Source: a virus
Length of the DNA stretch: 64,000 bases
IMG/VR virus record: IMGVR_UViG_3300041405_000133
Coordinates: 62,001-126,000 of that record
Strand: one strand, 5' to 3'
Every line of letters starts with the position of its first letter. Positions within the stretch are counted from its first letter, which is position 1. The notes beneath the pieces were generated by a model that was not told the DNA's origin, made no database searches, and saw nothing but the letters and a program-made list of their open reading frames with translations. Below are positions 10,771-58,587 of this stretch, piece by piece. The position numbers and the translations under genes are program-made.

Positions 10771-10790
10771 ACACATTGTTGGAGTAGATA
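10771..10790 (+). promoter_or_regulatory. Putative early (virion RNAP) promoter motif
   Basis: The block ACACATTGTTGGAGTAGATA shares its ACATT core and TAGA element with at least seven other intergenic sites in the window. The upstream sequence is A/T-rich. It lies about 52 bases before the start of the 148-residue gene. The resemblance to the phiKZ early promoter core (reported as TATATTAC-like) is from memory. Confidence 0.55.
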
Positions 10791-10841
10791 AACACTACGA
10801 TAGCCATTCCGGTTATCTATCTAACGACCGTGGAGGTCACA

Positions 10842-11288
10842 ATGTCCAACGCAATCAAAACCCTGCAAGCTGCTTTCGATCGTATTGAAAACGTTGTTGA
10901 ATACAACGAAGAGTTCAACAACGGTACTGGCTACTTCGACCATCTGGTGAATCACGACACCGGCCTGGAAGTTGGTCAGCGCTTCAAGATGCAAACTCCA
11001 ATGCCGAACAACCGCAAGGTCATCGGCGTGGTTACTCCTGTCGGTAACGCAGTGTTCTTCGAACGCTACACCGGTGGCGAGCGCGGTATCGTTGCACGCA
11101 ACATCCCATCGTCCTTCAGCGGCATCTTCATTGAAGGCCAGGTTTCCGATGAGCTGCTTTCGATGGCAATCGGTTCCGCTGAAGGCTACAATCGCAACAT
11201 CGGCCACATGCTGAAAGCCGTAGTTATTAAAGCTACTGGCAATGGTTTCATGGAAGCTAAGGCTGAGAAGCCAGCAGACCTGAACTAA
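10842..11288 (+). CDS. Small codon-optimised protein of unknown function (148 aa)
   Basis: No family is recognised. The ATG at 10842 is chosen because GGAGG lies 5 bases upstream; an in-frame GTG at 10830 lies within that ribosome site. The protein looks compact and mixed alpha/beta (FERYTGGERGIVARNIPSSF, about residues 67-86). Codons are almost all the C-ending or CTG forms seen in the chimallin gene, so it is probably made in large amounts. It has its own promoter-like motif and sits among late virion genes, forming with the next two genes a group of early-type small genes. Confidence 0.75.
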   Translation: MSNAIKTLQAAFDRIENVVEYNEEFNNGTGYFDHLVNHDTGLEVGQRFKMQTPMPNNRKVIGVVTPVGNAVFFERYTGGERGIVARNIPSSFSGIFIEGQVSDELLSMAIGSAEGYNRNIGHMLKAVVIKATGNGFMEAKAEKPADLN

Positions 11289-11300
11289 AAGATTTATAGC

Positions 11301-11320
11301 TACACATTGTAAACTCGCAA
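11301..11320 (+). promoter_or_regulatory. Putative early promoter motif
   Basis: TACACATTGTAAACTCGCAA carries the ACATTG core 13 bases after the previous stop codon and about 44 bases before the next start. The TAGA half is poorer than at other sites. No terminator separates it from the upstream gene, so it would give an internal transcript start. Confidence 0.45.
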
Positions 11321-11363
11321 CACACCTAACCTTTCGAAACAATTTGTTATTTGGAGATACACC

Positions 11364-11612
11364 ATGTCTGCTGAAATCGCTCAAGTTGCTGCTCAATCCG
11401 TTTCTTACCTGCAACGTCTGAAAGACCTGGCTACCGCTCACCCAGTGGGCGCAGTTGTCGCTGGTACTGTCGTAGCCACTGTTGCAGTGGTCGGCGGTTA
11501 CAAGCTCGCCACCAAGATGTTCGGCGAAAAGAAGAAAGAGCCGCACGCTGACGTAACTGTCAACGTCGATGCTCGCCCTGCTGCGGATGCGACTGCCAAA
11601 CCGGCAGCGTAA
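11364..11612 (+). CDS. Small single-pass membrane protein, codon-optimised (82 aa)
   Basis: An 82-residue protein. After an amphipathic N-terminal region it has one strong hydrophobic segment (about residues 28-46, VGAVVAGTVVATVAVVGGY), a basic flank (KLATKMFGEKKK) and an Ala/Asp-rich tail. The basic flank after the segment predicts a cytoplasmic C-terminus. No signal-peptidase site is evident. TTGGAG lies upstream of the ATG. Strong codon bias and its own promoter-like motif suggest early, abundant expression at the inner membrane. The function is unknown. Confidence 0.75.
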   Translation: MSAEIAQVAAQSVSYLQRLKDLATAHPVGAVVAGTVVATVAVVGGYKLATKMFGEKKKEPHADVTVNVDARPAADATAKPAA

Positions 11613-11620
11613 CCTCAGTC

Positions 11621-11660
11621 ATCAGATCGGTCGGCCAACGGCCGATCTGATGATTTCTTT
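11621..11660 (+). terminator. Strong intrinsic terminator
   Basis: Long inverted repeat: ATCAGATCGG upstream and CCGATCTGAT downstream, around a GGCC-rich loop. It is followed by GATTTCTTTTTTTTG, a genuine T-run. It separates the membrane-protein gene from the next promoter-like motif. Confidence 0.85.
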
Positions 11661-11686
11661 TTTTTGTATTTAAATCAAACACAACC

Positions 11687-11706
11687 ACACATTACCAACT
11701 AGAGAA
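11687..11706 (+). promoter_or_regulatory. Putative early promoter motif
   Basis: ACACATTACCAACTAGAGAA is one of the best copies: full ACATTACC core, A-rich spacer and TAGAGAA. It sits in A/T-rich sequence after a strong terminator and about 105 bases before the next start. A second, weaker GTTACATTCG lies in that leader. Confidence 0.6.
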
Positions 11707-11811
11707 TCAGCTGCAATCACAGCCTCGGTTTCTGTAGATAGTTACATTCGTAGTAAACCCTGTGTTCGAAAGTCGAATACCCCTAACCCGTGTAATACAA
11801 GGAATCGCAAC

Positions 11812-12270
11812 ATGAGCAAAGAATTGAACCCAGCCGTACGCGCCCTGGCCGATGACCTGAAGCCGATCATCGTTCTGGACGAAACCACTGGCGTGGCCGA
11901 AGCTACTGGCGCCGAAGACGTATTCGCCAAGCATCTGCCTGAAGGCATCACCCTCGACACCGTGAAGTCCGTTCAGGACAGCCTGCTGACCTACGCTGCT
12001 GCTCACACCCTGGCCAACGGCGAAGTACAGCGCGATGCAATGGTCAAGAACAAAGACCTGGCGTCCGGCTCGCTGTCGACCAAGATCGGCTACAGCAAGA
12101 TCGAATCCAGCTACCACCGCAAGAAGTCCGGCACCGCCATGGGCAAGCCGTGGGAGAAGTTCGGCGTTTCCAATACCGACGTTACTCTCGGTGTCGGCCG
12201 CAAGGGCTCGGATCTGAAAGCTGTCGTGAACTACCTGAGCGAAGATGCGGCCTCCGTATTCGCCAACTGA
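11812..12270 (+). CDS. Abundant small protein of unknown function (152 aa)
   Basis: A 152-residue protein with no recognised domain. It has an acidic N-terminal half and a basic Ser/Gly-rich middle (SGSLSTKIGYSKIE; YHRKKSGTAMGKPWEKFG). Codon choice is among the most biased in the window (GCC, CTG, GGC, AAG), so high expression is expected. It is monocistronic: a strong terminator and good promoter motif lie upstream and two hairpins downstream, with a leader of about 105 bases. Candidate roles are an early host-takeover or DNA-associated factor; the sequence does not choose between them. Confidence 0.78.
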   Translation: MSKELNPAVRALADDLKPIIVLDETTGVAEATGAEDVFAKHLPEGITLDTVKSVQDSLLTYAAAHTLANGEVQRDAMVKNKDLASGSLSTKIGYSKIESSYHRKKSGTAMGKPWEKFGVSNTDVTLGVGRKGSDLKAVVNYLSEDAASVFAN

Positions 12271-12291
12271 TTGCACTGCCTGGGCGCCGTG

Positions 12292-12362
12292 ACTGGAGAA
12301 GGGGCCAACACTTCTCCAGTGGTAGCCGATCGTAAAGCCGGGGGTTCGCCTCCGGCTTTATG
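12292..12362 (+). terminator. Tandem stem-loops, second with TATG tail
   Basis: Two hairpins in series. The first is a perfect 10-bp stem (ACTGGAGAAG 12292-12301; CTTCTCCAGT 12311-12320). The second is AAAGCCGG (12334-12341) with CCGGCTTT (12352-12359), running into TATGCCCC and a T-rich tract. Two hairpins after one short, highly expressed gene suggest that tight transcript isolation or 3'-end protection matters here. Confidence 0.8.
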
Positions 12363-12382
12363 CCCCTTTATTTTTTCTTAGT

Positions 12383-12402
12383 ATACATTTCACTTTCTCA
12401 CA
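12383..12402 (+). promoter_or_regulatory. Weak copy of the early promoter motif
   Basis: ATACATTTCACTTTCTCACA keeps the ATACATT core but loses the ACC and TAGA parts. It lies 38 bases upstream of the next start, directly after the tandem hairpins. The position argues for function, the sequence less so. Confidence 0.3.
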
Positions 12403-12420
12403 ACCCGTAAGGACTAAAGC

Positions 12421-12744
12421 ATGATCCTCCGCACTTCTGATTTCAAGAACCTTGGCACTCTGGCTGATGCTCTCTTCCGTGAGAGTAAGATCCGCATTGT
12501 GTTTCAGGCTGACGCAGATACACCTCTGCTCAAAGTTCCACACCGCGGGCGTTATGCCTTGCCTATTCTGACTGGCAACATGACTGTCGCTGCGTACGTC
12601 AGCATGATCCGCGGCCCTCTGCGTACTCGTGGTCTCAATGCTGGCGATGATCACATTCTCGCCAATGTAGGGATTACCGTGATCAGTAAGACGGGTAATA
12701 TCCCGGCTGGACAAACCCTCATCAAGAACATTGGTTTCGAATAA
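12421..12744 (+). CDS. Hypothetical protein (107 aa)
   Basis: No recognised domain. A small basic, mixed alpha/beta protein with APILTGNMTV-like hydrophobic strands near the middle. TAAGGA lies upstream of the ATG. It forms a two-gene unit with the next gene (10 bases apart), bounded by stem-loops on both sides. Codon use is average for the phage, so expression is probably lower than for the preceding small genes. Confidence 0.7.
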   Translation: MILRTSDFKNLGTLADALFRESKIRIVFQADADTPLLKVPHRGRYALPILTGNMTVAAYVSMIRGPLRTRGLNAGDDHILANVGITVISKTGNIPAGQTLIKNIGFE

Positions 12745-12754
12745 GGATTCATCG

Positions 12755-13279
12755 ATGGATCGTGAACTTGTAGAACTCGTCAGCGAGCAAATGCCGAAGT
12801 ACGAGATTCCAAAGCAGCACTGCGGTCTCATGATCGTAGATACCCCTGAACGTGTTGATGAGCTGTACGAACAGTTCGGGTTCAATGGCACCAAGTTCAT
12901 TCAGATCGCTCACGGTACACTCTGGGATCGTGCCATGTACCGCAATGAACATTCTGAAGATATCCATGTGGTCGTCATGGACCTCATCGATATTAATGAA
13001 CTTCATCGTTTCGGTCCACCATCGCTGGCTTGGGTAGAGTCGTGTATCCGTAACATCTTCGCTCGGTATTACTGCCGGGATGAGAAGTACTTAGCTGCCG
13101 AAGGCGATGAGCGTATCTCTCTGATGCGTCGTCAGAACGGTGGGAAGAACATCGACACCGAGTTTGATATCGTTGCCATGGGTACTAAGGACTTCATCTA
13201 CAAACACAAGCATCGGGGTGTGGGCGGTCCTGCTCAGGTATTTGTAACGAAACCTTATCCAAACCAAACTACTGATTAA
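12755..13279 (+). CDS. Hypothetical protein (174 aa)
   Basis: An unrecognised 174-residue acidic protein. The ATG at 12755 (product begins MDRELVEL) is preferred because AAGGATT lies just upstream, while an in-frame TTG at 12731 falls inside the previous gene. The middle is rich in His and Asp (RNEHSEDIHVVVMDLIDINE, about residues 64-83). The C-terminus is basic (KHKHRG). It ends the short operon before a bidirectional terminator shared with the minus-strand tail genes. Confidence 0.7.
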   Translation: MDRELVELVSEQMPKYEIPKQHCGLMIVDTPERVDELYEQFGFNGTKFIQIAHGTLWDRAMYRNEHSEDIHVVVMDLIDINELHRFGPPSLAWVESCIRNIFARYYCRDEKYLAAEGDERISLMRRQNGGKNIDTEFDIVAMGTKDFIYKHKHRGVGGPAQVFVTKPYPNQTTD

Positions 13280-13283
13280 CAGC

Positions 13284-13651: not shown

Positions 13652-13679
13652 AGTGCTATCTCTTTTAGTACTTCACGGT

Positions 13680-13715: not shown

Positions 13716-13725
13716 AGTAACGGTG

Positions 13726-14586: not shown

Positions 14587-14589
14587 TTA

Positions 14590-25699: not shown

Positions 25700-25719
25700 T
25701 ACATTGTGAACTAGATATA
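25700..25719 (+). promoter_or_regulatory. Putative early promoter motif
   Basis: TACATTGTGAACTAGATATA has the ACATTG core, A-rich spacer and TAGATATA, with A/T-rich sequence before it. It lies 33 bases upstream of the first gene of a plus-strand run and in a divergent gap, where a promoter is expected. Confidence 0.6.
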
Positions 25720-25751: not shown

Positions 25752-25931
25752 ATGAGTAATCAAGCAACTAATAAGCCGATCTTTCTGCGTTCCGGTGATG
25801 ATCTTGACTGCGATTGCGGTCGACGGGGAAGCGTAAAGATTCCGTATCAAACAGCTCCAGGCAAAACCTCGTACCACGTTTTCTGTGATGATCATTACGA
25901 TGATTGGAAGGAAGACAACAAAGGGTCTTAA
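25752..25931 (+). CDS. Small Cys-containing protein (59 aa)
   Basis: The ATG at 25752 follows GGAGG and a promoter-like motif, and gives a 59-residue protein (begins MSNQATNKP). It has CDCGRRG near residues 20-26 and a later Cys/His cluster (VFCDDHYDDW), possibly one zinc site. The stop overlaps the next start (TAATG), indicating coupling with a second small zinc-ribbon-like protein. The function is unknown. A regulatory or inhibitory role typical of early phage micro-proteins is possible. Confidence 0.65.
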   Translation: MSNQATNKPIFLRSGDDLDCDCGRRGSVKIPYQTAPGKTSYHVFCDDHYDDWKEDNKGS

Positions 25932-28779: not shown

Positions 28780-30258
28780 ATGACTATCCGCGAAGAAGTT
28801 ATCGCTTTGAAACCAACAACAACCGAACGTGAAGTTCCTACCCGTATCTTCGGCGAAGCTGAAGTGCGTCAGACGTACATCGACAAGGCTAAGTACGAGA
28901 GTGTTGGTCGAGGTTCTTTCAATCCGTTATTGTCGCTGATTGGACCTAATGCTGACTTCGATGGTAATGCCTTGAATATAAAACCGGGGCAACTAGAGCA
29001 AGTGCTCTTTACACGAGGTTACGCTACAGATATAAATTCCGACATCTCTCTCACTCCAGATGCGTTCGCTGATTATCAGCGGTTTATGGCTGAGTCACAA
29101 ACAGCGATGGTTCTCGAGACAGGTGACGCGACTAAAGCCCTGATCATGGAGAACAAACCGCTGGACGAGAGCGAATACTTCAACCGTAAAATGTTGGCTA
29201 AGGCTGAAGCGGTTGAGCAACGTATCTTGAAGTTGATGGAAGAAGGGATGACTCGTGTTGAGGCTACTCAAGTAGTTGCTTATAACGCAGATCAGCTCAA
29301 CAAAATGCGCCAGAAAGAATGGCGCGCGCACGTCAACGGTTATGAACTCTTTGGTCCTGATGATCCTAATCGCCGGCCTATTAAGGACCCGACATCTTAC
29401 GATGACGATCTGATCGCTCGTCAATACCGTGATCCACTCTTTAAGGTCCGAGCTATTGAGGATCACATCGAGAGCATCATGATGTTCAAAGATCCTGGTT
29501 GGGAAGCTCGGATTATCCGTCTGCGTAAAGAACAAGCGATGTTGATGGCGCCTATTGAAGAACCGGTAGTCGTTGAACCGGAAGAGCCACCACCTCCACC
29601 GCCTATTCTGGACTTCACCACCGGTGATCTGGAAATGCCTGAGCGATTCATCATCAAGGATCTCAAAGGCTTCGAGTTCAATCCAGATACCAAGTTCGAT
29701 GGTCTGCGCCTGCCTTACGATTCCTGCCTGTTTGTATTGGGTGATGAACTGAAGGCTGTTGTTCTGGCTACTCAGGAAGACGAGGACGTAATCACTCTGA
29801 AGCTTCTATCTGAGACCAAGAAGGATATCCCTTGGCACGCCACTGCAACGCTGTACGCGCGTCTTCAAGGCGATAAGGTTAAGGTTCGTTGGGGTAACAC
29901 TAAACGCAGTCTGGATAAGCGTTTGGGTATGGTGTCTTCTGTTCTTGCCTTCATCGCTGGTGAGCAGCTTAGTGAAGTTGAGATCGAAACTGTTATCACC
30001 GCCCCTGAGCAAGACGTTCCTCCACCTAAGCCGGGCAACTGCTACAACGTGGTTAGTCTGGTGCAAGGTCGTCGTGGTAAACGTACTGATTGGAAAGGTG
30101 GTACTCACGCCTCTCCTCGTGAACACAAACGTAAAGGCCACTGGTGGCCTGGCAAACACGGTCCTATCTGGATCAAGGCTACTATCGTGAACAAAGGTGT
30201 TCTCGGTAAAGTCGATAAAGAATATCACGTCACTAAACTTGAAGGAACAAACGCATGA
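28780..30258 (+). CDS. Protein of unknown function with degenerate RNAP active-site motif (492 aa)
   Basis: Residues about 47-60 read LLSLIGPNADFDGN, almost the beta-prime catalytic motif NADFDGD, with the third metal-binding aspartate replaced by Asn. The preceding hydrophobic strand matches the same context in the true beta-prime subunit (LTLVAPNADFDGD at 45.9 kb). The surroundings do not otherwise look like RNAP. A helical middle and a proline linker (EPEEPPPPPP, about residues 267-276) are followed by a basic, Trp-containing C-terminal domain (HKRKGHWWPGKHGP). It could be a captured and repurposed beta-prime fragment, or convergence. Predicted catalytically dead as a polymerase. Confidence 0.68.
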   Translation: MTIREEVIALKPTTTEREVPTRIFGEAEVRQTYIDKAKYESVGRGSFNPLLSLIGPNADFDGNALNIKPGQLEQVLFTRGYATDINSDISLTPDAFADYQRFMAESQTAMVLETGDATKALIMENKPLDESEYFNRKMLAKAEAVEQRILKLMEEGMTRVEATQVVAYNADQLNKMRQKEWRAHVNGYELFGPDDPNRRPIKDPTSYDDDLIARQYRDPLFKVRAIEDHIESIMMFKDPGWEARIIRLRKEQAMLMAPIEEPVVVEPEEPPPPPPILDFTTGDLEMPERFIIKDLKGFEFNPDTKFDGLRLPYDSCLFVLGDELKAVVLATQEDEDVITLKLLSETKKDIPWHATATLYARLQGDKVKVRWGNTKRSLDKRLGMVSSVLAFIAGEQLSEVEIETVITAPEQDVPPPKPGNCYNVVSLVQGRRGKRTDWKGGTHASPREHKRKGHWWPGKHGPIWIKATIVNKGVLGKVDKEYHVTKLEGTNA

Positions 30259-31854: not shown

Positions 31855-32361
31855 ATGACTGAAGCTGAAGAGAAAGAAAAAGCCAAGAAGCTGGTAGAGG
31901 AAACTCAACCGGGCATGCACCTGCGATCTATGCCTGACGCTCGCGAGTCCGGTGAAGTCATGATCGAACTCCCAATTACCATGCCATTTGATGATGGCGT
32001 GAATGGGATTATCGAAAGTCTTGAAGCCAAGGGTTTTAAGGTTAGCTGGCGCCGCGAAGGCGACGCTTCTTTTGAAGACGCGTCTGAAGGTATCGACACA
32101 GGTCGTCCTGTGGCGGGTACTGCGTCTGGGGATAACAACATCATCAATGGCGTAAGCTTACCGAAGGTAGACGACCACTCCGTCTACAAGGTGGTAAAGC
32201 TGGTGCGTCCTGAAGATACCGTCAAGGATGGCGAGAGCGGATTGCTCTACCTGATGAATGGTAATGGTGATGTAAAGGAATACCTTCAGAATGAAGGATT
32301 CCTCGTGGTGGATGAAGAAGAGCAGTTGCACACTGCGATTCTGGAGAATGGTGAAGCTTGA
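31855..32361 (+). CDS. Hypothetical acidic protein (168 aa)
   Basis: A very acidic 168-residue protein with a charged N-terminal helix (EAEEKEKAKKLVEETQPGMH), a middle of predicted strands (GEVMIELPITMPFDDGV, about residues 34-50) and a C-terminal VVDEEEQLHTAIL. CGAGGATTT precedes the ATG. It is the first gene after the structured region, so it may be controlled by it, and it ends at a stem-loop. No family is recognised. Confidence 0.62.
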   Translation: MTEAEEKEKAKKLVEETQPGMHLRSMPDARESGEVMIELPITMPFDDGVNGIIESLEAKGFKVSWRREGDASFEDASEGIDTGRPVAGTASGDNNIINGVSLPKVDDHSVYKVVKLVRPEDTVKDGESGLLYLMNGNGDVKEYLQNEGFLVVDEEEQLHTAILENGEA

Positions 32362-32368
32362 TCATGCG

Positions 32369-32400
32369 GCATAAAGACGGGGTGGGATTACCCACCCTAT
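32369..32400 (+). terminator. Stem-loop at a convergent junction
   Basis: GGGTGGG (32380-32386) pairs with CCCACCC (32391-32397) over ATTA. GGCATAAAG lies before it. It ends the plus-strand gene before the minus-strand gene. Confidence 0.8.
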
Positions 32401-32417
32401 CCTAAACCTCTATGATC

Positions 32418-32437
32418 ATACATTACCGACGTGTAAT
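32418..32437 (+). promoter_or_regulatory. Early promoter motif pointing antisense into a minus-strand gene and towards phuZ
   Basis: ATACATTACCGACGTGTAAT has the full core seen in front of the chimallin and nvRNAP genes. The first plus-strand gene downstream is phuZ, 923 bases away. A transcript from here would be antisense to the whole minus-strand gene between them. Confidence 0.55.
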
Positions 32438-33276
32438 CAGTATCGAGGTCTTGCACCGAGAGACAGCTTAAGGATTTTACGCTTAAGCTCTTGGTCCGCA
32501 AGCATCCCGACTTTCTTCCAATCCACGTTGAGGTAGTCCATGTACATTTGGTCAGCATCAGCGTAGCTGTCGATAATCTCCCGGATACGTCCGAGACTTG
32601 CGCCAGCTCGAATCTGACCTTCATCCAGATCAATGATCAGGTTGTTGTAGATGTACGCCTTGACTGCACGGAAGACGAGTTCCGCAAACTCTGAGTAGTA
32701 CATCGGGTCGAGGTTGTTAAAGTTCGCCTCGTGGGACACACGGCACCGTACCGCACCGTCACCGACCAATTGGTTGATGTCGTTGACTAGGATGGTGTTA
32801 ATTCCTACGAGTTGAACGTATGCTGTACCCATTACGGTACTGCCGCTAACGGCCCGCATGATGTCACGACCAACCATGAGCATATCGCCAGCACGACGAT
32901 CGAAACCTGAGTTAGTACTGCTACTCAGGCCTTGAGTCAAACCGTAGATAAGTTCATGGACAGTTGTGATGTTCCGACCACCCAATGCTTCACGGGGGAA
33001 TCGGTACACTACGTTGTAAGCATCGATGAAATCAACTTCCGCAAAACACAACGGAAGGAACATTTCAGTACCAGAGTTCAGGTTGACATCGATTGCGACA
33101 CGAGCCTCAATAACGAGTTCGCGGATACGCTGATCAATAGACAGCCCATTGACGTTATCGAAATAACGCTCTTGGCGTGTTGGGTCGTAACGCTTTGGCA
33201 TGAATGCTTGCTTCAAGATATCCGGTGGAATACCGTTCTTGACACGCATGATCGCCACTGTAACCGGATCTGACAT
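32437..33276 (-). CDS. Conserved hypothetical protein opposite a promoter motif (279 aa)
   Basis: The ATG at 33276 (product begins MSDPVTVAIM) lies behind GGAGGG; an in-frame TTG five codons earlier is inside that site. The protein is mixed alpha/beta with AVSGSTVMGTAYVQLVGINT (about residues 144-163) and a basic C-terminus (LGARPRY). No family is recognised. It is divergent from phuZ with an 83-base gap. It is one of three lone minus-strand genes among plus-strand genes. If the plus-strand promoter motif at its 3' end works, its mRNA meets an antisense transcript. Confidence 0.65.
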   Translation of the reverse strand: MSDPVTVAIMRVKNGIPPDILKQAFMPKRYDPTRQERYFDNVNGLSIDQRIRELVIEARVAIDVNLNSGTEMFLPLCFAEVDFIDAYNVVYRFPREALGGRNITTVHELIYGLTQGLSSSTNSGFDRRAGDMLMVGRDIMRAVSGSTVMGTAYVQLVGINTILVNDINQLVGDGAVRCRVSHEANFNNLDPMYYSEFAELVFRAVKAYIYNNLIIDLDEGQIRAGASLGRIREIIDSYADADQMYMDYLNVDWKKVGMLADQELKRKILKLSLGARPRY

Positions 33277-33359
33277 AACGAATCCCTCCAATAGGACTCA
33301 AGTGATTTCGCTTGAAGCCTCTTACCATTGTTGCACCAACCATCCATTAGGAGCTGTAC

Positions 33360-34367
33360 ATGTCTGAAGTAATCAACACTGGCCTGATCAACGTTCGTCC
33401 TCGCACTATCCGTTTCTACGCCTGTGGTGGTACTGCAATCAACCAACTGCGAGCATACCGCGATAACCATCCTGGTGAACCGCGTCTGCATGGCGACGAG
33501 AAATACAGCTACATCGATACCAGCTTCGCCAACCTCGATGGCGCGCTGATGTCCGAAACCTTCACCCTGAAAGAAGCCGATGGTTCGGGTTCCGACCGGA
33601 AGAAGAACGCTGCGCGTATCGTGGGGGTACTTCCTGAAATCATGTTGGCTCACCAGCCTGCTGACTTCAACGTCGTTATCTTCTCCCTGTCTGGCGGCAC
33701 TGGCTCCGTGGCCGGCCCGATCATCCTGAAAGAACTGCTGGCCAAAGGTCACAAAGCTGTCGGCGTTACTTCCGCAGCATTCACCTCCGGCAAGAAATCC
33801 TCCAACGCCATCGATACCCTGACTGGCCTGGAGTTGGCTGTTGCGTCCGTCGGCCGTCCGGTTGTTCTGAGCTACACCCCGAACGATCCGAACAAAACCG
33901 ATTCCGACAACAACATCAAACCACTGTTCGTTCTGCAAACCCTGGCCAAACTGGCGAGCGGCAAGAACGGCCATCTGGATTCGTCCGACGTGGCGAACCT
34001 GTTCGACTTCCACACCGTAACCAACTACAAGCCATCGCTGGCTCTGCTGGATGTGTACGCTGGTGAAGAACAGTTGAAGTCTGACGTTACCAGCGCCATC
34101 GGCATTGCCGGTCTGCTGAAAGATCGCACCAGCGTCATGCCGGCTATCAATGCCGCTTATGACACTGTCGGCTACCTGCCTGAAGACAATCGTGAATTCG
34201 CCAACTCCTTCTACTTCGTCGTGTCCATCGAGAAGCTGAACGGCGTTGTCAAAGACATGAACGATCGTAAAGCTCAGGCTGAACTGAAAGAACGCGTCAC
34301 CAACACCGTTTCGACCCTTGCTACCGCTGGCGTTGTGGTAGATGAAGCAACCGGCCTGGTCTTGTAA
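33360..34367 (+). CDS. phuZ: Phage tubulin PhuZ
   Basis: A 335-residue tubulin/FtsZ-fold GTPase. The signature GGTGS loop is SLSGGTGSVAGP (about residues 109-120), and YACGGTAINQL (about 20-30) supplies the N-terminal nucleotide-binding turn. PhuZ filaments form a spindle that centres the phage nucleus and carries capsids to it (family knowledge). The length matches known PhuZ (roughly 315-340). The C-terminus (VVVDEATGLVL) is less acidic than the knob tail described for 201phi2-1. Strongly C-ending codons and GGAG before the ATG predict high expression. A stem-loop with a 12-bp stem follows. Confidence 0.92.
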   Translation: MSEVINTGLINVRPRTIRFYACGGTAINQLRAYRDNHPGEPRLHGDEKYSYIDTSFANLDGALMSETFTLKEADGSGSDRKKNAARIVGVLPEIMLAHQPADFNVVIFSLSGGTGSVAGPIILKELLAKGHKAVGVTSAAFTSGKKSSNAIDTLTGLELAVASVGRPVVLSYTPNDPNKTDSDNNIKPLFVLQTLAKLASGKNGHLDSSDVANLFDFHTVTNYKPSLALLDVYAGEEQLKSDVTSAIGIAGLLKDRTSVMPAINAAYDTVGYLPEDNREFANSFYFVVSIEKLNGVVKDMNDRKAQAELKERVTNTVSTLATAGVVVDEATGLVL

Positions 34368-43527: not shown

Positions 43528-43550
43528 ATACATTACCGTAGTGAATATAA
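43528..43550 (+). promoter_or_regulatory. Putative early promoter motif, downstream copy
   Basis: ATACATTACCGTAGTGAATA has the complete core, with A/T-rich sequence before it. It is the probable main promoter of the chimallin gene. Confidence 0.6.
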
Positions 43551-43777
43551 CCAGTAGATAAGGAAAGTCGAAGTGATCTAAGTAAAAAGTCACACAGCAA
43601 CAGAATCTTAAGACCCGTAGCGTAAAGCCGGTTTAGTGCAACCGGTTCAAGCCCGTGCTATTCACGACGGTGGGTATTGCCGGGAATCCCTGATAGCGAT
43701 AAGGGTAATAGTACCGTAATTGCCAGTTAGGCACCATCGCAATAAATGTGTACACAAAATCTTTAGGAGTAGCACCA

Positions 43778-45796
43778 GTGAGCAAAGAAAACGGTAACGA
43801 CGGCTTCGAAATGAAAGATGACGCCCCAGCCCCACGCGCCGAAGCTCCAGCATCTGAGCGCCGTGAAGAACGTCGCGAAGAGCCACGTCGTGAAGAACGC
43901 AATACCCGCCGCGATCGCGATGAGCGTGAAGAAGGCGAAGAACGTGCGTTCACGATTGCGGACATCGGCCGTACCCTGAACGTCCGTCCATCCAGCGGTG
44001 GCCTGAGCGATGCTGCTCTGTCCGCACTCATGGCTGCGTTCGAGAAGAACAAGGCGTTCGACAAACCGAACCTGCCTGATGCAATCAAGCGCGACCGCTT
44101 CAAAGTGATTCCGCTGGACGGCTCCCTGGCCAAGTCCTCGCTGAACTCGCTGCTGGTAACTTTGCCAATCGTCATCGGCGCTGGCAAGGCAACTCTGGTT
44201 TACGTTCTGACCATCGAACCGGCCGGTGGCCACGGTACTCGCAGTCAGGTCGATCGCGGCACCACTTACGATGCGATCGTTCTGCCTGAAGACCAACTGG
44301 CTACCAAGCCGTACAAACGCGCCATCGAAGATCAGGTCTCCGGCCTGAACAAAGATGCCAAGGTTGTGGTGATCGGTTCGCAGGTTCTGCTGTCGTCGGT
44401 TGTAGCGAAGCTGAACAAAGAAGAAAACAGCGCCGTCGTCGATCGTATCTTCGACAACGCCCTGGACGCACTGTGCGGCTACCGCGAAAACCTGGTCGAC
44501 AAGGCCGGTGGTTCCCGCAACAGCGCCTTCCGTATCAGCCCGAAAATGATCGGCCGCACTGGCCGTCTGGAAACCACCTGGAACTACAGCGGTCAACCGG
44601 GCGAAGATAGCTCGGGTCAGCCGATCCGTTCCGACTGCACCGGTAACCTGTTCTACAGCGAAGCCAGCAACGAAGACGACAACCAGTACGATCGTACCCC
44701 AATGGGCGAAATCCGTGCCGGTATCGACCTCTTCCTGGCCGACAACCGTGAACAATCCAGCGGTCCATCCTTCTCGCGCCGTCGCAAGTCGCAAGAAGAA
44801 GGCGAACCGTTCATCCAGGCCGTTCTGAACATCACCTCGATCGCTCCGGCGCCGAACTTCCCGTTCTCTCTGGAACTGGCACTGCTGCTGTTGGCTCAGG
44901 CCAACCTGCAATCGAACGACTACCGCTGGGCTTCCCAGCTGCGTCCTCGCACTGCAATCAGCAATCCAGATGGCACCGGCGTGATGAAGCCTACCAGCAA
45001 CATCAACTGCCTGCACCTGCTGAACCCGAACCGCGACTTCGCCAAGATCTTCGACGACGTGTCTCCGAACATGGACGACAACGATCTGAGTGATTACCTC
45101 GCGTTCACGGTCTTCCCGAAACTGGCCATCGGCATGATGATCCCAAGCTCGGGCGAGAAGTCCTCGGTTCTGTCGATCTTCGAAAGCATCGCGACCACTC
45201 GCGATACCGACGTTGCTCGTCGCCACACCAAGACGCTGTTCGAAGCTGCCGACGTTCTGTCGGGCAACCGCTTCAGCCGCGCCTACAAGGACCTGGCTGG
45301 TTCCACCGACGTAGCTCCAGTGCGTTCGATGGGTACTCGTCAGCTGATCGGCACCTGGGTTGATAACCAAGGCAACGTGCGCGACCTGCGCGAATGGAAC
45401 GTTCAGTCTCTCCTCACCGAAGTTGGCGAGAAGAACATCGATCTGGTTACTGACTTCCAGTACACCTACGAGAACGATCGCAACACCGTGGACTTCTGCC
45501 TGGCAGAACGTCTGGGCTACCTCCAGAAGGTTGTTCCGGGCATCCGCGTTACCACCACCGCTCCGCTGCTGGGCTTCGAGCCTGACTTCCTCGAGGCGCT
45601 GTCGCGCTCCCTGGACGCAGCTGACATGTCGAGCTACATGACTGCCGAAGGTGGTCTGAACACTCGTCGTCACGTTGGTGGCAGCAACTGGTCGCAGCTG
45701 GCAACTTCCGACATCGGCATCAGCCGTCGTCGTGGTTCCGACCGCACCACCGCTGATCGTGGCCGTGGTGGTCTGTTCGACACCATCGACTACTAA
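43778..45796 (+). CDS. chmA: Chimallin-like phage nucleus shell protein (phiKZ gp54-like)
   Basis: A 672-residue protein starting at GTG 43778, behind AGGAG with 8-base spacing; an in-frame GTG at 43748 lacks one. The first 60 residues are highly charged (ERREERREEPRREERNTRRD, about residues 28-47), then a large globular alpha/beta region, then a Gly/Arg-rich tail ending FDTIDY. Assigned because it lies directly upstream of the nvRNAP beta-prime N-terminal gene, as phiKZ gp54 lies before gp55, and has extreme codon bias, a promoter array, a long leader and a strong terminator. Chimallin lattices enclose phage DNA in the cell. It is somewhat longer than the roughly 600-630 residues of known members. 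Folding prediction would settle it. Confidence 0.75.
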   Translation: MSKENGNDGFEMKDDAPAPRAEAPASERREERREEPRREERNTRRDRDEREEGEERAFTIADIGRTLNVRPSSGGLSDAALSALMAAFEKNKAFDKPNLPDAIKRDRFKVIPLDGSLAKSSLNSLLVTLPIVIGAGKATLVYVLTIEPAGGHGTRSQVDRGTTYDAIVLPEDQLATKPYKRAIEDQVSGLNKDAKVVVIGSQVLLSSVVAKLNKEENSAVVDRIFDNALDALCGYRENLVDKAGGSRNSAFRISPKMIGRTGRLETTWNYSGQPGEDSSGQPIRSDCTGNLFYSEASNEDDNQYDRTPMGEIRAGIDLFLADNREQSSGPSFSRRRKSQEEGEPFIQAVLNITSIAPAPNFPFSLELALLLLAQANLQSNDYRWASQLRPRTAISNPDGTGVMKPTSNINCLHLLNPNRDFAKIFDDVSPNMDDNDLSDYLAFTVFPKLAIGMMIPSSGEKSSVLSIFESIATTRDTDVARRHTKTLFEAADVLSGNRFSRAYKDLAGSTDVAPVRSMGTRQLIGTWVDNQGNVRDLREWNVQSLLTEVGEKNIDLVTDFQYTYENDRNTVDFCLAERLGYLQKVVPGIRVTTTAPLLGFEPDFLEALSRSLDAADMSSYMTAEGGLNTRRHVGGSNWSQLATSDIGISRRRGSDRTTADRGRGGLFDTIDY

Positions 45797-45876: not shown

Positions 45877-47367
45877 ATGGATTTGATTAATTACGATATC
45901 TACGAGCCACGTCAGCGTTATCCGGGGCGTAAGGGTATCTATCCAGTCATTGAAGACTTCGACCTGATGTTCAAGAACTTGAGCATTAAGCCGATGTTGG
46001 CAAACGACCTGGATCTCGAAACAGATGAAGGTAAACAGCGGTTCAACGATCTGGTCTACACCAAGTACGATGGTGACGTGTTCTCCAACGTGCCGGCGTG
46101 TCCATGCCGTAAGACTTCTGGTGGTAGCCGTATTCATGACAACTGTATTCACTGCGGTTATGAAGTACTGCCAATTACAGAGCAAACTATCGAACCTATC
46201 GTCTGGGTAAGGGCACCTGACGAAGTTCCTGGGTTCATCAACTTGACAATCTACCGGTTGCTCAAGGCCCGATTCACCAAGTCCTCATTCAGCGTCTTCG
46301 ACTACATCCTTGATCCAAAGTACCGACCTCCTAAGCTTAACAGCAAAGAAGAGCGTCTTATTGAAGCGATCGTACCTACTCGTGGGTTGGTCTACTTCCA
46401 TAAGCACTTCGATGAGATCATGTCCAAGTTGTGCGCAATCAGGCACTTCGTAACAGCGGCCAAAGCTGCTAGCACGATGCGTTTCATTGATATCCACAAA
46501 CACCTGATCTTCTGCCGCTACATGCCGTTCCCATCCAAGATTGGTTTCATCGTCGAAGATGTGGGCGACCGTACGTACGTCGATCCAAAGATGGCGCCCG
46601 CACTGGATGCGCTCATCTGTCTTGGCAAAGTAGCATCGGCCAAGCGCATTTCTCTGTACGATCTTGAATCCCGGATCGCACGGTCAAGCAATAAGCTCTG
46701 CACCTATTACTCTGGTAACGAGCACCTCAAAATCTTTGACAAGAAAGGAGTATTGCGAAAACTGGTTTACGGTGTATCGCCGCACTTTACGTTCCGTACG
46801 GTAATCACCTCGAACCACAAACCTCACGATCACGAGTCTCTCGAGATTCCATGGGGTTCAGCAGTTCTGACGTTTAAGCTCCACATCGCGAACAAGCTAC
46901 GGAAGGAGAAGTATACTCCTAACGAAATCTTGACGCTGGTCTACGATAACGTTCTTCGGACGCACCACCGCATTGAGAAGATCTTCGACGAGCTGATCGC
47001 CGAATCTCCAGGCGGTCGAGGGATGATGGCAGGCTTTACGCGGTTCCCATCGCTTAAGCGTGGTTCTACGCAAGGCTTCTACATCGATACGATCAAACGC
47101 GATCCTACCCAATTGAGTACATCCATCTCTGTATTGACGCTGGTAGCGCCCAACGCCGACTTCGATGGTGACTACATGTCTGGACAATTGGCACTGGATA
47201 ACGTGACAGCAAGGGCTTTCGAGCGCCTGAAACCAAGTACTGGGTTCATGGATCTCAAGAAGGTCTTCGGAGTGAGTAACCACGCAAACATACCTGCGCC
47301 GGTTATCTCTACAATCAACGCACGTATTGAGGAAGGAAACGACCTATCAGTACCCATGGGAGATTGA
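45877..47367 (+). CDS. Non-virion RNA polymerase beta-prime N-terminal subunit (phiKZ gp55-like)
   Basis: A 496-residue protein. An N-terminal zinc-ribbon-like CPCRKTSGG with NCIHCGYEV (about residues 72-95) corresponds to the beta-prime zinc-binding domain. The catalytic motif VAPNADFDGD (about residues 423-432) is intact. The protein ends about 65 residues later, so the rest of beta-prime comes from the gene at 60.8 kb. It belongs to the five-subunit nvRNAP that transcribes middle and late genes. It follows the chimallin gene as in phiKZ. Less biased codons than chimallin, and no promoter of the early type in front, suggest lower, perhaps read-through, expression. Confidence 0.88.
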   Translation: MDLINYDIYEPRQRYPGRKGIYPVIEDFDLMFKNLSIKPMLANDLDLETDEGKQRFNDLVYTKYDGDVFSNVPACPCRKTSGGSRIHDNCIHCGYEVLPITEQTIEPIVWVRAPDEVPGFINLTIYRLLKARFTKSSFSVFDYILDPKYRPPKLNSKEERLIEAIVPTRGLVYFHKHFDEIMSKLCAIRHFVTAAKAASTMRFIDIHKHLIFCRYMPFPSKIGFIVEDVGDRTYVDPKMAPALDALICLGKVASAKRISLYDLESRIARSSNKLCTYYSGNEHLKIFDKKGVLRKLVYGVSPHFTFRTVITSNHKPHDHESLEIPWGSAVLTFKLHIANKLRKEKYTPNEILTLVYDNVLRTHHRIEKIFDELIAESPGGRGMMAGFTRFPSLKRGSTQGFYIDTIKRDPTQLSTSISVLTLVAPNADFDGDYMSGQLALDNVTARAFERLKPSTGFMDLKKVFGVSNHANIPAPVISTINARIEEGNDLSVPMGD

Positions 47368-53562: not shown

Positions 53563-53583
53563 ATACATTACAGTATAGAGTAA
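53563..53583 (+). promoter_or_regulatory. Putative early promoter motif
   Basis: ATACATTACAGTATAGAGTA: full ATACATTAC core and TATAGAG, A/T-rich before it. It lies 32 bases upstream of the nvRNAP fifth-subunit gene, right after a stem-loop. Confidence 0.6.
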
Positions 53584-53614: not shown

Positions 53615-55204
53615 ATGGAATTCAGCATCACTGGATTTACCAAACGAAGTTTCTCAGCTGTCGCTGTGTCCCACCCTGGTGAAAACGATATCATCATTAA
53701 TGCTGCGGGTTACGCTAACGCTAAACCGGGTGCAGTAAAGAACGATGACGAGTTCGGGATGCGCGTCGAGCTGTTCAGCGAGATCAATGATCTCATCAGC
53801 CGTTACAGTAAGGGGGATCAACAAAAGCTGTACGATTGCTACGCCCGCCTTGACACGGTGCTGGACTCGTACGGTACAGATGTAAAAGCCAGTGAATTCA
53901 TGGAGTTGCTGCAAGATATCGTTAAAGGTATCTTCGACATCGTGAAGTTCGAAGATCTGCGTGATTACCTGACCAGTAATAAGAACATCAAGTTCCCCGC
54001 AGAACTGGCCGACACTTACGTTACAGCGGATAAGATCACTCCGATCTACATGGAGCGTACTTATCTGAAACGGGAATACATCGATCTGGCAGCAGTGGCA
54101 TTGGGCCTGCGGTGCATGATTCCTGTTTGGGGAGCCTTCCTTCCAATCGCTATAAAGGAAGAAGGTCCGAAGAAGAAGGAGTACGTTGCGTACAAACTTC
54201 TGGAAACCTGCCTGCTCAAAGAGTGTCCTGCATTCGATCGTCTGGAAACTTACGTTCGGGCAAACACTACAGAGATGGAACACGAGATGGCTATCATCTT
54301 CGAGTTCCTGTCATCCGAGGAGATCCCTGTCTTCCTGATGGCACTGGCATTGATCCGTAAGGTTTCGATCGCCCCGTTGTCCGCAGAGACGGATAAGGAT
54401 CACTTGATGAAGGTGGTCTTCAACTACGTCTGCGGTAACAACAACAGACTTCCGGCGGCATTCGGCGGTAACATCCGGTCGAAGATCGATGTGGAAGCAG
54501 CAACAGACGACAACAGTTCGGTCTGGTGCTATTACAAAATGAAGGAGCAGATCAGTACTGGCGACCTCTGCATCTTCCAGCTGTACATCACCGATTACCT
54601 CGAGGCAGCTCGGGCAATCGATCAAGAGATCACTGACGAACAAACCGAGATGTGCGTAGCCCGCGCGCAGAAGTTGGCACGGTTTGATCCGAACGATGCA
54701 CAAGTAGCTCTCTGCATCTGGGTTATGTCTACAGTGGTAGCAGGTTGTGCGATCGAGATGTTCGACCGTAACACTCTGTTCACGGCAATGGGTATTTCCC
54801 AGACCGTCCTGTGGAAGTGGGGTTTCCATCAATTGGCAATCCTACAAACAGCAGCTCCCGTCCAGATGGCAGACGACGAGATGATGACCCCGGTTCCTAG
54901 AACCAAGATCAGCGACGAGAACATGAAACAGCTGGAATACATCTATCCTTACACAATGCCGGAGAGCAAGAAGGATAGTGGTCAATCACCAAACGTTGGG
55001 GTACGTGGGGTGGAAGACGCGGCAAATGTATTCTTTAAGAACGAGTGGGAACCTCAGTGCCCGCGCCAATTGGCAGCGAAGTACGAGCGGACAGACGTTA
55101 CCCGGCGTCTGCAAGTTTCCAGTGACTTCCGTGATGAGCTGGCTGAGTTGTTTATCAAGCTGGACGGTTACGTACGTCACATCCCTATCCCGGTAATGGA
55201 CTGA
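53615..55204 (+). CDS. Non-virion RNAP fifth (non-beta) subunit, phiKZ gp68-like
   Basis: A 529-residue protein with ATG 53615 (GGAG 8 bases upstream). No RNAP motif is visible, but size and place (first gene of the block that continues with counterparts of gp69, gp70, gp71-73 and gp74) match phiKZ gp68, the subunit unique to the phage enzyme and needed for promoter recognition (family knowledge). Mostly helical, with CDRNT-like short linkers and an acidic middle. Assignment rests on synteny. It has its own early-type promoter motif. Confidence 0.7.
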   Translation: MEFSITGFTKRSFSAVAVSHPGENDIIINAAGYANAKPGAVKNDDEFGMRVELFSEINDLISRYSKGDQQKLYDCYARLDTVLDSYGTDVKASEFMELLQDIVKGIFDIVKFEDLRDYLTSNKNIKFPAELADTYVTADKITPIYMERTYLKREYIDLAAVALGLRCMIPVWGAFLPIAIKEEGPKKKEYVAYKLLETCLLKECPAFDRLETYVRANTTEMEHEMAIIFEFLSSEEIPVFLMALALIRKVSIAPLSAETDKDHLMKVVFNYVCGNNNRLPAAFGGNIRSKIDVEAATDDNSSVWCYYKMKEQISTGDLCIFQLYITDYLEAARAIDQEITDEQTEMCVARAQKLARFDPNDAQVALCIWVMSTVVAGCAIEMFDRNTLFTAMGISQTVLWKWGFHQLAILQTAAPVQMADDEMMTPVPRTKISDENMKQLEYIYPYTMPESKKDSGQSPNVGVRGVEDAANVFFKNEWEPQCPRQLAAKYERTDVTRRLQVSSDFRDELAELFIKLDGYVRHIPIPVMD

Positions 55205-55244
55205 AAAGTTCAATCCCCTAGAGTATTAAGCACAGGAGTAATTC

Positions 55245-56837: not shown

Positions 56838-56880
56838 AGCCCTTTTCACAAACCCCTATTAATGACCACGGGAATTAGTG

Positions 56881-58143
56881 ATGAGTGGAAGTAAGCTCGA
56901 TCGAATGAATGACTTCAACCGAAAGGTCCTACTTGACGTAGGGGTTTTCGAAGAAGAAGTAGATGACGGCCATCTGTCCTACCTTAAGGACGGTAAGCCA
57001 TCTCCAGTGACCCTGAACAAGACCCGTCTGTGCATCACTGTACAGAAGATCTTGAAAGAAGGCCTGGGCGAAGAACGTACTGGGTTCCATCCCCTTGCTG
57101 AACAGATCACCGAAGGTCCAAGTCCTGTACTGAATGCCTTCAAGAACTACGTCGGTGAGCGCATCAAGGCAACGGTTCGCCATATCGGCCTGTCGTTGAT
57201 GGAACTGGCATCCGACTCCAAGCGCCACAAAGGCATGTCTGCCAAGGCTTCCAAGTATCTGACCGCTCTGGCAGGTATTGGTGAAGTCGATGAAAAGACT
57301 GTCGATACCATGCGCAAGGTGTTCGATGCTGTCAGTCAGGTTCCTGAGAAGCACCTGATTACCATTATCCTGAAAGCCAAGACCGACGACGGCAGTCTGC
57401 GTCAATCGGTTGTAACCTTCCCGATCATGGATGAAGCCGATAGCGAAGAAACCGAAACCTTCTTTGGCGTGAAGATGCCACGGAAGACCAAGGACAAAGC
57501 GCTGATTGTATCGGTTCTCGAATACATCCTTGGCGACGAGCCAGCTCGCAAGATGTACACCTCCGGCAGTAAGAACGGCAACTCGCCGTACTTCCACAGC
57601 CTGTTGCTGTCCTTCCACAAGCTGGCGACTCGATTGAACGACATCCTCACCGTACATGCGCCTAAGTGCCCATCGTTCGAAGAGCTGAAGTTCAATCTGG
57701 ACTGGAGCGATGAACTCGATAACTTCGACGACTTCGCCAAGGTTTGCAGCCGAGCAGTTCCTGCTCTGCCGGGTAACACCGGTAAGGAAATCGAAGAAGA
57801 ACGTTCTGCGTTCGAAGCAAGTGCGAGTGATGTTGGTGCCGATGATGATCTGCCGTGGAATGAACCTAAAGCCAAACTCACCATCGGTAGCGATGACGAG
57901 AAGCGTCCGGCTGCTGGTTCGAGTTTCCGCGACACTGTCAGCAGCTCTCGTTCGAGCCGTGATCGTGATGATGATCGCTCGGATAGCCGTTCGAATCATG
58001 GAAGCTTCCGTGACTTGATGGGCGGTAAGGGTCGTGACCGCGATCGTGACGATCGTGATAGCCGTCGTGAAAGCCCAAGCTGGCGTTCAGGGCGTGATCG
58101 TGATGATCGTGACCGTGGTGGTCGCGGTGGCCGCGGCTGGTAA
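56881..58143 (+). CDS. RD/RS-tailed protein, C-terminal GRGW (phiKZ gp70-like by position)
   Basis: A 420-residue protein (ATG 56881; a GTG lies one codon before). A helical globular part of about 300 residues is followed by an extended disordered tail dominated by Arg, Asp and Ser (SRSSRDRDDDRSDSRS, then RDRDRDDRDSRRES), ending RGGRGGRGW. The tail resembles RS/RG RNA-binding regions and could form condensates. Position between the GKGW protein and the nvRNAP beta gene makes an RNA or phage-nucleus role likely. Confidence 0.65.
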   Translation: MSGSKLDRMNDFNRKVLLDVGVFEEEVDDGHLSYLKDGKPSPVTLNKTRLCITVQKILKEGLGEERTGFHPLAEQITEGPSPVLNAFKNYVGERIKATVRHIGLSLMELASDSKRHKGMSAKASKYLTALAGIGEVDEKTVDTMRKVFDAVSQVPEKHLITIILKAKTDDGSLRQSVVTFPIMDEADSEETETFFGVKMPRKTKDKALIVSVLEYILGDEPARKMYTSGSKNGNSPYFHSLLLSFHKLATRLNDILTVHAPKCPSFEELKFNLDWSDELDNFDDFAKVCSRAVPALPGNTGKEIEEERSAFEASASDVGADDDLPWNEPKAKLTIGSDDEKRPAAGSSFRDTVSSSRSSRDRDDDRSDSRSNHGSFRDLMGGKGRDRDRDDRDSRRESPSWRSGRDRDDRDRGGRGGRGW

Positions 58144-58157
58144 TTAGCGGCATAGAG

Positions 58158-58195
58158 AGGCGGGGACTTCCCCGCCTATTCTACTTTTCTTTTTG
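58158..58195 (+). terminator. Terminator between convergent genes
   Basis: AGGCGGGG (58158-58165) and CCCCGCCT (58170-58177) over ACTT, followed by ATTCTACTTTTCTTTTTG. CGGCATAGA lies before it. Confidence 0.85.
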
Positions 58196-58199
58196 TTCC

Positions 58200-58541
58200 C
58201 TAGCTGACATTTAAGCTAGTTCTGTAGATTTGTTTAAACCGCGCAACCAAGGCCATGTCAGGCACAAGCACATGGTTGATCGTTTCATCAATCTGGTGAA
58301 TAGAGGAAAACCCGTTAACTCGCATCACCAGATAATGATCCTCAAGTGGTACGCCGTTCGCTAAAAGGAACTGTGTTAGGTCAAACCTGTAGAGATATCC
58401 AGTCTCAGGAGATACCATCACTTGACGAGTGGTCTCAGATTCCCTGAAGTAGATGATCAGGGAGTCCACGTACGTCTTATATTCTTGAGTGAGTGTGAAG
58501 CTTGAGGGAGACGCTACGATCCACTTGGAAATGCCAGTCAT
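58200..58541 (-). CDS. Small hypothetical protein (113 aa)
   Basis: A lone minus-strand gene inside the nvRNAP block. It has hydrophobic strands (VDSLIIYFRES, about residues 25-35) and a VMRVNG segment. No family is recognised. The stop lies next to the T-run of the plus-strand terminator. Its start is 27 bases from the plus-strand promoter motif. It may be a late gene or a regulatory insertion. Confidence 0.55.
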   Translation of the reverse strand: MTGISKWIVASPSSFTLTQEYKTYVDSLIIYFRESETTRQVMVSPETGYLYRFDLTQFLLANGVPLEDHYLVMRVNGFSSIHQIDETINHVLVPDMALVARFKQIYRTSLNVS

Positions 58542-58567
58542 GTGTTTACCTATAAAAGTCTTGAGTT

Positions 58568-58587
58568 ATACATTACCGAAATAGAAT
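58568..58587 (+). promoter_or_regulatory. Putative early promoter motif before the nvRNAP beta gene
   Basis: ATACATTACCGAAATAGAAT is the closest copy to the consensus of the set. It lies 32 bases before the nvRNAP beta C-terminal gene, and the minus-strand gene ends its coding part next to it. Confidence 0.65.

Follow-up and report, generated by a model that had tools for sequence, protein, structure and literature searches.

Predicted virion RNA polymerase early promoters in an uncultivated phiKZ-like phage, and candidate leaders of its PhuZ and chimallin genes

The DNA analyzed here is a stretch of 64,000 nucleotides, referred to as the window, which covers positions 62001-126000 of the 129,947-base virus record IMGVR_UViG_3300041405_000133 and has a G+C content of 51%. 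Genes were called with a home-made codon-usage script, which placed 62 in the window, and a scan against PHROGs covered 34 of these. The matches include chimallin, the tubulin PhuZ, several RNA polymerase (RNAP) beta-like genes, a tail sheath and a terminase and, together with the phage comparisons described below, they place the window with the phiKZ-like nucleus-forming phages. The nearest annotated phage is pPa_SNUABM_DT01 (DT01), with 42%, 40% and 30% identity over three proteins. A first-pass annotation had proposed that a shared promoter-like motif marks the genes transcribed early by the RNAP carried in the virion (vRNAP), including those of the non-virion RNAP (nvRNAP). The nine sites are listed here with their matrix scores; coordinates are those of the window, lengths are in nucleotides (nt) or amino acids (aa), and ORF is an open reading frame.

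10772..10786, + strand: predicted early promoter CACATTGT-N6-A(+1) with G at +2, leading gene 10842-11288; 23.3 bits; leader 56 nt
11303..11317, + strand: predicted early promoter CACATTGT-N6-G, leading gene 11364-11612; 22.7 bits; site at 7/7 distant orthologue loci
11688..11702, + strand: predicted early promoter CACATTAC-N6-G, leading gene 11812-12270; 22.5 bits; 9/10 distant orthologue loci
25700..25714, + strand: predicted early promoter TACATTGT-N6-G, leading a 59-aa ORF, 25752-25931; 26.4 bits
32419..32433, + strand: predicted early promoter TACATTAC-N6-G, running antisense through 32437-33276 towards PhuZ; 26.6 bits
43467..43481, + strand: predicted upstream early promoter of chimallin, TACATTAT-N6-G; 27.5 bits
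43529..43543, + strand: predicted main early promoter of chimallin, TACATTAC-N6-G; 29.8 bits; 8/8 distant orthologue loci
53564..53578, + strand: predicted early promoter of gp68, TACATTAC-N6-G; 26.8 bits; 10/10 distant orthologue loci
58569..58583, + strand: predicted early promoter TACATTAC-N6-A(+1) with G at +2, leading RNAP genes; 16.6 bits; 10/10 distant loci

The layout of the motif is an A-rich stretch, TTTACAG, the octamer YACATTAY, five loose bases and T(-1) G(+1) A(+2). When the window sites were aligned on the octamer, seven of the nine read as octamer, six bases and G; at 10772 and 58569 an A occupies +1 and the G follows at +2. The exact sequence ATACATTACC has three copies in the 129,947-base record, in which the pattern YACATTRY-N6-R was found 11 times on the + strand and never on the - strand, against three and three for the reversed pattern used as a control. 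A 32-column matrix was then trained on sites from distant relatives only, located before the orthologues of five genes (gp68, chimallin, g11364, g11812 and the RNAP gene). A site was obtained for 44 of the 45 gene-locus pairs, the sole miss being g11812 in L045, and the 44 sites comprise 36 distinct 32-mers. The training sites were located with a degenerate expression derived from the window sites that required a purine at +1; therefore, the octamer columns and the purine are partly assumed, while the flanks are free of this assumption. Applied to both strands of the window, the matrix returned exactly nine matches above 14 bits, all on the + strand (16.6-29.8 bits; in descending order 43529, 43467, 53564, 32419, 25700, 10772, 11303, 11688, 58569), and the next best reached 10.0. 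These are the nine sites of the first-pass annotation, and its additional weak copy at 12383 was rejected, with less than 7 bits. The motif is also commoner than in randomized sequence: 30 third-order Markov copies of the window contained a mean of 0.13 matches above 14 bits (maximum 2), although one of them scored as high as 26.2 bits.

Counted without any condition on +1, 43 distinct 100-base stretches (partly related) have G at this base in 41 cases, T(-1) in 36 and A(+2) in 35 and, further upstream, A(-29) in 35, A(-28) in 30, T(-22) in 32, C(-20) in 29, A(-19) in 33 and G(-18) in 29. The octamer spans -14 to -7 relative to the G and is thus an AT-rich element near -10, the degree of conservation within it being partly assumed; the G six bases after it is a sequence feature that marks the predicted start. 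An A-rich TAGA-type element had been described as a separate component. Since the spacing matches that of AR9, phiKZ and phiR1-37, this element is better read as the predicted start region, in which T(-1)G(+1)A(+2) lies six bases past the octamer, than as a second box.

All nine sites are intergenic according to our gene calls, compared to 11.4% of the window positions. A + strand gene start lies within 120 nt of six of them; for window positions at large, the share with such a start at 20-120 nt is 3.7%. The leaders at these six sites measure 36, 37, 38, 47, 56 and 110 nt, in rough agreement with the 32-105 bases first proposed, a range that is exceeded at both chimallin sites (235 and 297 nt) and at 32419, which is 927 nt from PhuZ. 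A stem-loop just upstream on the same strand, thought to be frequent, was found at 10772 (by eye) and 53564 but is not a property of every site. Among the orthologous sites, four of the seven at 11303 have TAG or TCA in place of TTR (octamer end ACATAG or ACATCA), two of the ten at 58569 have ACATCAT, and at 25700, whose gene has orthologues only in close relatives (among L033-L049), the sites in L033 and L034 retain the octamer with a different spacer.

The genes behind the window sites encode chimallin with a gp55-like protein, gp68, gp71/73-like and gp74-like proteins, and small proteins of unknown function. The named ones are the following.

43778..45796, + strand: chimallin (nuclear shell protein) gene, GTG start; phrog_4795, E=1.3e-34
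45877..47367, + strand: predicted nvRNAP subunit in the gp55 position; phrog_2987, E=1.6e-129; gene order as PHIKZ054-055
53615..55204, + strand: predicted nvRNAP fifth subunit, PHIKZ068 homologue; PDB 7ogp_B, E=1.2e-39
58619..60799, + strand: predicted nvRNAP subunit, gp71/73-like; phrog_3295, E=2.2e-170
60834..62813, + strand: predicted nvRNAP subunit, gp74-like; phrog_3015, E=1e-150

The window contains several RNAP beta-like genes; the nvRNAP set was told by gp68, gp123 and gene order, and 414-4688 is presumed to be virion RNAP. A gp123 homologue, predicted as the subunit still lacking and identified with the phiKZ protein as query (E=5.8e-61), lies outside the window (G000:6585-8126, G001:22165-23706), behind a 371-aa gene that is led by the motif (G000:5293, G001:20873). 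In phiKZ the motif precedes gp121, and gp122 (360 aa) precedes gp123; the 371-aa gene is likened to gp122 by position, not by sequence. Five nvRNAP genes were sought (gp55, gp68, gp71/73, gp74 and gp123), and the motif stands at the head of the presumed operon of every one. The chimallin and nvRNAP genes initially named behind the sites were correctly placed there, in a list that was incomplete since the gp123-like gene also belongs to it; 32418 fared differently, as it precedes no gene of its own strand and is oriented antisense to a minus-strand gene, with PhuZ beyond it. None of the nine matches precedes a tail-sheath, terminase or virion-protein match among the 34 window genes scanned, in agreement with the absence first reported for tail and terminase operons.

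Relatives were gathered through the RNAP gene (12 loci), chimallin (6), PhuZ (3) and the tail sheath (17), and chimallin loci from eight distant records were added by PHROG profile; several of the loci are close kin of one another, and G000, G001 and G002 are near-identical. G001 (253,921 bases) belongs to the same species as the window, its RNAP protein being 100% identical, and has 25 sites on its major strand and four on the opposite one. At 20 of the 25 same-strand sites and at none of the four others, the predicted start has within 60 nt an ORF that is equipped with a ribosome site, compared to 12% of 4,524 random positions of the same loci. This 60-nt rule is the informative form; the first one, with a limit of 360 nt, was weak, and at its sole miss (L071) the gene calls place a gene at +49. 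The two ORF scripts give different results for several of the G001 sites. Ten of the downstream proteins were scanned and three matched, a homing endonuclease, an Arc-like regulator and a NinI-like phosphatase, with no structural protein among them. The strand preference was seen in each of nine records and totals 190 against 44, versus 79 and 59 for the backward pattern; these are raw counts, without correction for multiple testing. Right behind sites L068 and L072 of G001 lie ORFs of 31 and 35 aa with hydrophobic stretches, possible early membrane peptides.

Published work describes, in each RNAP-encoding jumbo phage, a motif of its own before presumed early operons, varying between phages, and defines the phiKZ-type vRNAP promoter by a highly conserved AT-rich element of about 10 nt centered near -10 (PMC7598289). 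In phiKZ and phiR1-37 transcription starts six nucleotides downstream, and the mapped early promoter of AR9 is AAATATATATTAT-(6N)-G (PMC5312081). In phiKZ, TATATTAC-N6-G precedes chimallin, gp68, gp121 (the gp121-gp123 run) and gp036; the orthologous operons, the octamer frame and the N6-G spacing are the same as here, and a similar A-rich/TTT(G)AG box lies upstream. The octamer of the window differs from that of phiKZ by a T to C change at position 3, with C allowed at 1, T at 8 and G at 7. The numbers are also alike, 28 early promoters in phiKZ (PMC13282480) and 25 same-strand sites in G001. The sequence TATATTAC-N6-G is found before chimallin, gp68 and the RNAP gene in 201phi2-1 and Eowyn, and before gp68 in FLC9; RAY has TACATTAT-N6-G before gp68 and TATATTAT-N6-G before the RNAP gene. 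In 37.5 kb of DT01, the + strand has [CT]ACATTA[CT]-N6-G at four places and the opposite strand has no copy; chimallin, gp68 and the RNAP gene are each preceded by one of the four. The word "promoter" is absent from the main text of the DT01 paper (PMC8541153). AR9 shares an octamer-like TATATTAT, six bases and G (PMC5312081), but differs by a longer A/T run, uracil DNA and the lack of a pseudo-nucleus (PMC7598289). Table 2 of PMC7058600 gives predicted promoters of N1M2, OBP, 201phi2-1, EL (WTTTYAAACCTACATTATY) and phiKZ (TATATTAC), and the EL consensus, compared as printed, has the TACATTAT octamer behind a TTTYAAA box and is the closest printed consensus found. The initial remark that the motif is not identical to that of phiKZ was thus correct, with the qualification that its octamer was already in print for EL. 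As comparable promoters are present in the named phages and in print, comparison identifies the nine sites as members of the known phiKZ-type kind of early promoter, whose octamer here resembles that of EL.

The proposed vRNAP regulon, with a consensus other than that of phiKZ, is supported by where the sites lie, by the genes behind them and by their conservation, and we estimate a probability of about 0.93 that the nine sites are early promoters used by the RNAP carried in the virion. Several observations weigh against this reading. The site before the RNAP genes, 58569, has the lowest score and an A at +1, and the one at 10772 (g10842) was visible in only one of seven distant loci (L044; by eye, within 150 nt). 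In FLC9 the RNAP gene has CATATTAC-N6-A, and no match was found before the presumed chimallin gene. Site L058 of G001, probably a chance match, and site 1600 of DT01 fall inside genes. The 360-nt form of the ribosome-site rule holds at 24 of the 25 G001 sites, yet 59% of random positions satisfy it as well, and many training rows are closely akin. The strand bias of single records is not to be over-read because the strand was called major only after counting, three of the records are near-identical, and in G003 the backward control places 20 sites on the strand (20 versus 9) that carries 24 of the motif.

Two other explanations were considered for the set as a whole. The motif could instead be a regulator binding site, or a middle or late promoter read by the nvRNAP; the regulon may include regulators, an Arc-like protein being encoded behind G001 site L070. 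However, the motif leads the presumed operons of all the nvRNAP genes sought, which must be transcribed before the nvRNAP exists; the known nvRNAP promoters differ (TATG in phiKZ, AACA-N6-TA/G in AR9; PMC5312081, PMC7598289); and a fixed T-G-A six bases downstream suits a promoter core better than an operator, all of which makes this explanation very improbable. The least probable one is that these are sigma-70-type promoters read by the host RNAP, with TACATT as the -10 box. TACATT does share four of six letters with TATAAT and lies near -10 of the predicted start, but the 43 sites show no conservation of a TTGACA-like -35 box, their conserved columns being at -29/-28 and -23 to -18, and the spacing to the G and the gene content fit early promoters of a phage RNAP. 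Furthermore, phiKZ grows in the presence of rifampicin, and so does AR9 with reduced yield (PMC7598289).

If the sites are early promoters, the vRNAP would recognize YACATTAY at about -14 to -7 together with the upstream A-rich/TTTACAG box and open the DNA, and initiation would take place after six more bases at the G, or sometimes A, usually in a TGA context. Recognition by this enzyme, the exact start base, the operon extents and the early timing are predicted from the features described above. The first transcripts would then encode the second polymerase (the gp55, gp68, gp71/73, gp74 and gp123 homologues), chimallin, PhuZ by way of a long leader, and small proteins, while the annotated structural genes, which lack the motif, would wait for the second polymerase.

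The site at 32419 is located between the ends of two convergent genes and is aimed into the 3' end of one of them.

32437..33276, - strand: phrog_3179 gene, 279 aa; PHROG match
33360..34367, + strand: PhuZ tubulin gene; phrog_4733, E=1.1e-70; 927 nt past the predicted start 32433
32380..32397, - strand: terminator-like hairpin followed by CGTCTTTATG, with CTTTATG, for the minus-strand phrog_3179 gene

The phrog_3179 homologue is annotated as a putative virion structural protein in OBP, pEt-SU and ZPAH34 (three of 40 listed records, the others being hypothetical or unannotated). The same layout of promoter, phrog_3179 gene and PhuZ is present in L030 and L031. In all eight distant records L081-L088, in which the phrog_3179 protein is 52-65% identical, the octamer of a YACATTAY-N6-G site starts 17-39 bases ahead of the point where the 3' end of the gene aligns, with PhuZ on the far side of the gene. 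G001 has the layout as well, with the addition of a gene for a 198-aa GIY-YIG-like homing endonuclease (phrog_314; L059 1501-2142) right after TACATTACC. The insert has ATTACC at both junctions. Its ORF starts 25 nt past the promoter, whose spacer and G are new, and the distance from the promoter to PhuZ is about 1.56 kb instead of 0.93 kb. The promoter position is therefore kept in 12/12 records. Since the endonuclease-like gene occupies exactly that place in G001, a loss of the gene in the window had looked possible, which would make 32419 a dead relic; this was rejected because L030, L031 and the eight distant relatives, all without the endonuclease, keep the promoter. In our interpretation, the endonuclease gene is a guest that arrived later and took the promoter over. 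A hidden coding gene behind 32419 was also rejected, as the + strand ORFs of the 11 guest-free records do not agree in place, start codon or length (unaligned translations).

Sites that lead to PhuZ are found in other phages. In another stretch of DT01 the motif lies directly before PhuZ (36 nt) and is absent at the phrog_3179 end, and phiKZ has early-type sites before gp036 (TATATTAC) and gp038 (TATATTAT), both upstream of PhuZ gp039. An antisense site in phiKZ was rejected: the closest candidate there, at the end of PHIKZ042, carries two changes in its octamer and is followed by a hairpin. The common factor is thus the membership of PhuZ in the early regulon. On these comparisons, the PhuZ mRNA is probably reached from the predicted promoter at 32419, which would supply it early with a 0.93-kb leader antisense to a possible virion-protein gene, and this leader could hold the phrog_3179 gene down until late. 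Alternatively, PhuZ could have its own promoter, and the product of 32419 could be an independent antisense RNA, a small RNA or an overlooked small protein. PhuZ is indeed 927 nt distant, the 83 bp between it and the phrog_3179 gene could harbor a late or middle promoter that would escape detection, and some records have + strand ORFs behind the start (138 aa in L088, 99 aa in L030). The variability of these ORFs, the lack of a terminator-like site in a scan of the + strand at 32350-33420 and the sites that lead to PhuZ in DT01 and phiKZ speak against it, and we consider this alternative the less likely one.

The excludon is a bacterial layout in which the long leader of one gene is antisense to a divergent neighbor. 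The proposed PhuZ leader resembles it in that two divergent genes are involved, one leader being antisense to the phrog_3179 gene, with the layout kept in 12/12 records. It differs in that the pair are phage genes behind a promoter of the phage-polymerase type. The layout looks new: it is unmentioned in the available portions of PMC13282480 and PMC7598289, no phage excludon was among the titles listed for excludon and phage, and in the portion of PMC4980113 available the excludon appears only as a reference; most subscription literature was outside the reach of these searches.

The chimallin gene has two sites about 60 bases apart. This double arrangement was also observed in the close relatives L024, L025, L027 and L028 and in two of eight distant ones (L094, L096). 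The main promoter is followed by a long leader.

43543..43777, + strand: predicted chimallin leader, with a putative folded core at 43624-43742

The distance from the main promoter to the chimallin start (the most upstream one in frame) is 235 nt in the window; in eight distant relatives it is 168-230 nt. The core was aligned in 12 sequences, several of them closely related. RNAalifold, run on full leaders, predicted 14 pairs, of which seven were changed on both sides in at least one sequence, with some rows broken. Using hand-picked helix arms, whose order was checked by the first or last occurrence of their letters (in some rows another copy of them), the pairs of P1 were kept in 60/61 cases with six arm types, those of P3 in 53/62 with seven, and those of P2 in 46/46 with five for the outer part and 68/68 with seven for the inner part. 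Two pseudoknots are possible in the core: pairing of the P1 loop with a GUAC-type stretch further on is possible in 12/12 sequences (four arm types), and a loop GCGA and a UCGC behind it are both invariant and therefore uninformative for covariation. Minimum-energy folding was no better than that of shuffles (z -0.46 and -1.22), so the case for a folded leader rests on the comparison, which makes a conserved fold very probably real.

A covariance model, R1, scores the window at 110.9 bits by construction, the window being a training row. Searched against 43 sources with E up to 1, including stretches of phiKZ, DT01, 201phi2-1, RAY (chimallin leader excluded), Eowyn and FLC9, it found nothing beyond the 12 training loci. 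Among the 80 matches listed by a loose DNA pattern scan, the model accepts seven, six in known records and one (L168) on the contig of L014. The core was thus seen only in this clade, among the sources searched and matches listed; the chimallin leader of DT01 measures only about 73 nt, and the core was not found in the DT01 stretches examined. Rfam gave no match at gathering scores for the window and six relative loci (one match was at chance level, E=8), and a tRNA search yielded nothing of use. No chimallin paper was among the matches listed in a literature search on the leader, and the available part of PMC8545117, on phiKZ RNA, has nothing about it, so that the folded leader looks new and is apparently undescribed. 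That it regulates chimallin synthesis is a guess.

Taken together, these observations suggest, as a tentative proposal to which we would give somewhat less than even odds, that the phage has two undescribed devices: an excludon formed by PhuZ and a virion-type gene, and a pseudoknotted chimallin leader that senses a ligand or protein and sets the amount of shell protein. One promoter would turn PhuZ on and the virion-type gene off until the nvRNAP takes over, and the leader might sense chimallin or, instead, passage through the nuclear shell. The antisense layout and the leader are testable candidate controls of the proteins that center and build the phage nucleus. More generally, predicted start sites, and hence an early gene list, can be proposed for an uncultivated clade of nucleus-forming phages from its sequence. 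One promoter architecture appears to extend across phiKZ, 201phi2-1, Eowyn, DT01 and this clade; the main change is in a single letter, which the EL consensus shares. This opens promoter recognition by the vRNAP to comparative tests.

Two other features of the window were observed. A 492-aa protein encoded at 28780-30258, outside the expected RNAP genes, matches an RNAP beta family in part (phrog_3015, residues 67-146, E=3.7e-10). Hairpins followed immediately by TTATGCC are present at 12358, 26148, 34411, 48023, 53532 and 62847 on the + strand and at 32374 and 20332 on the - strand; eight of the 11 TTATGCC copies in the window (a raw count) carry such a hairpin, between genes or at gene ends. 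The arrangement resembles a terminator without a long T run, and similar strings were seen by eye in the relatives.

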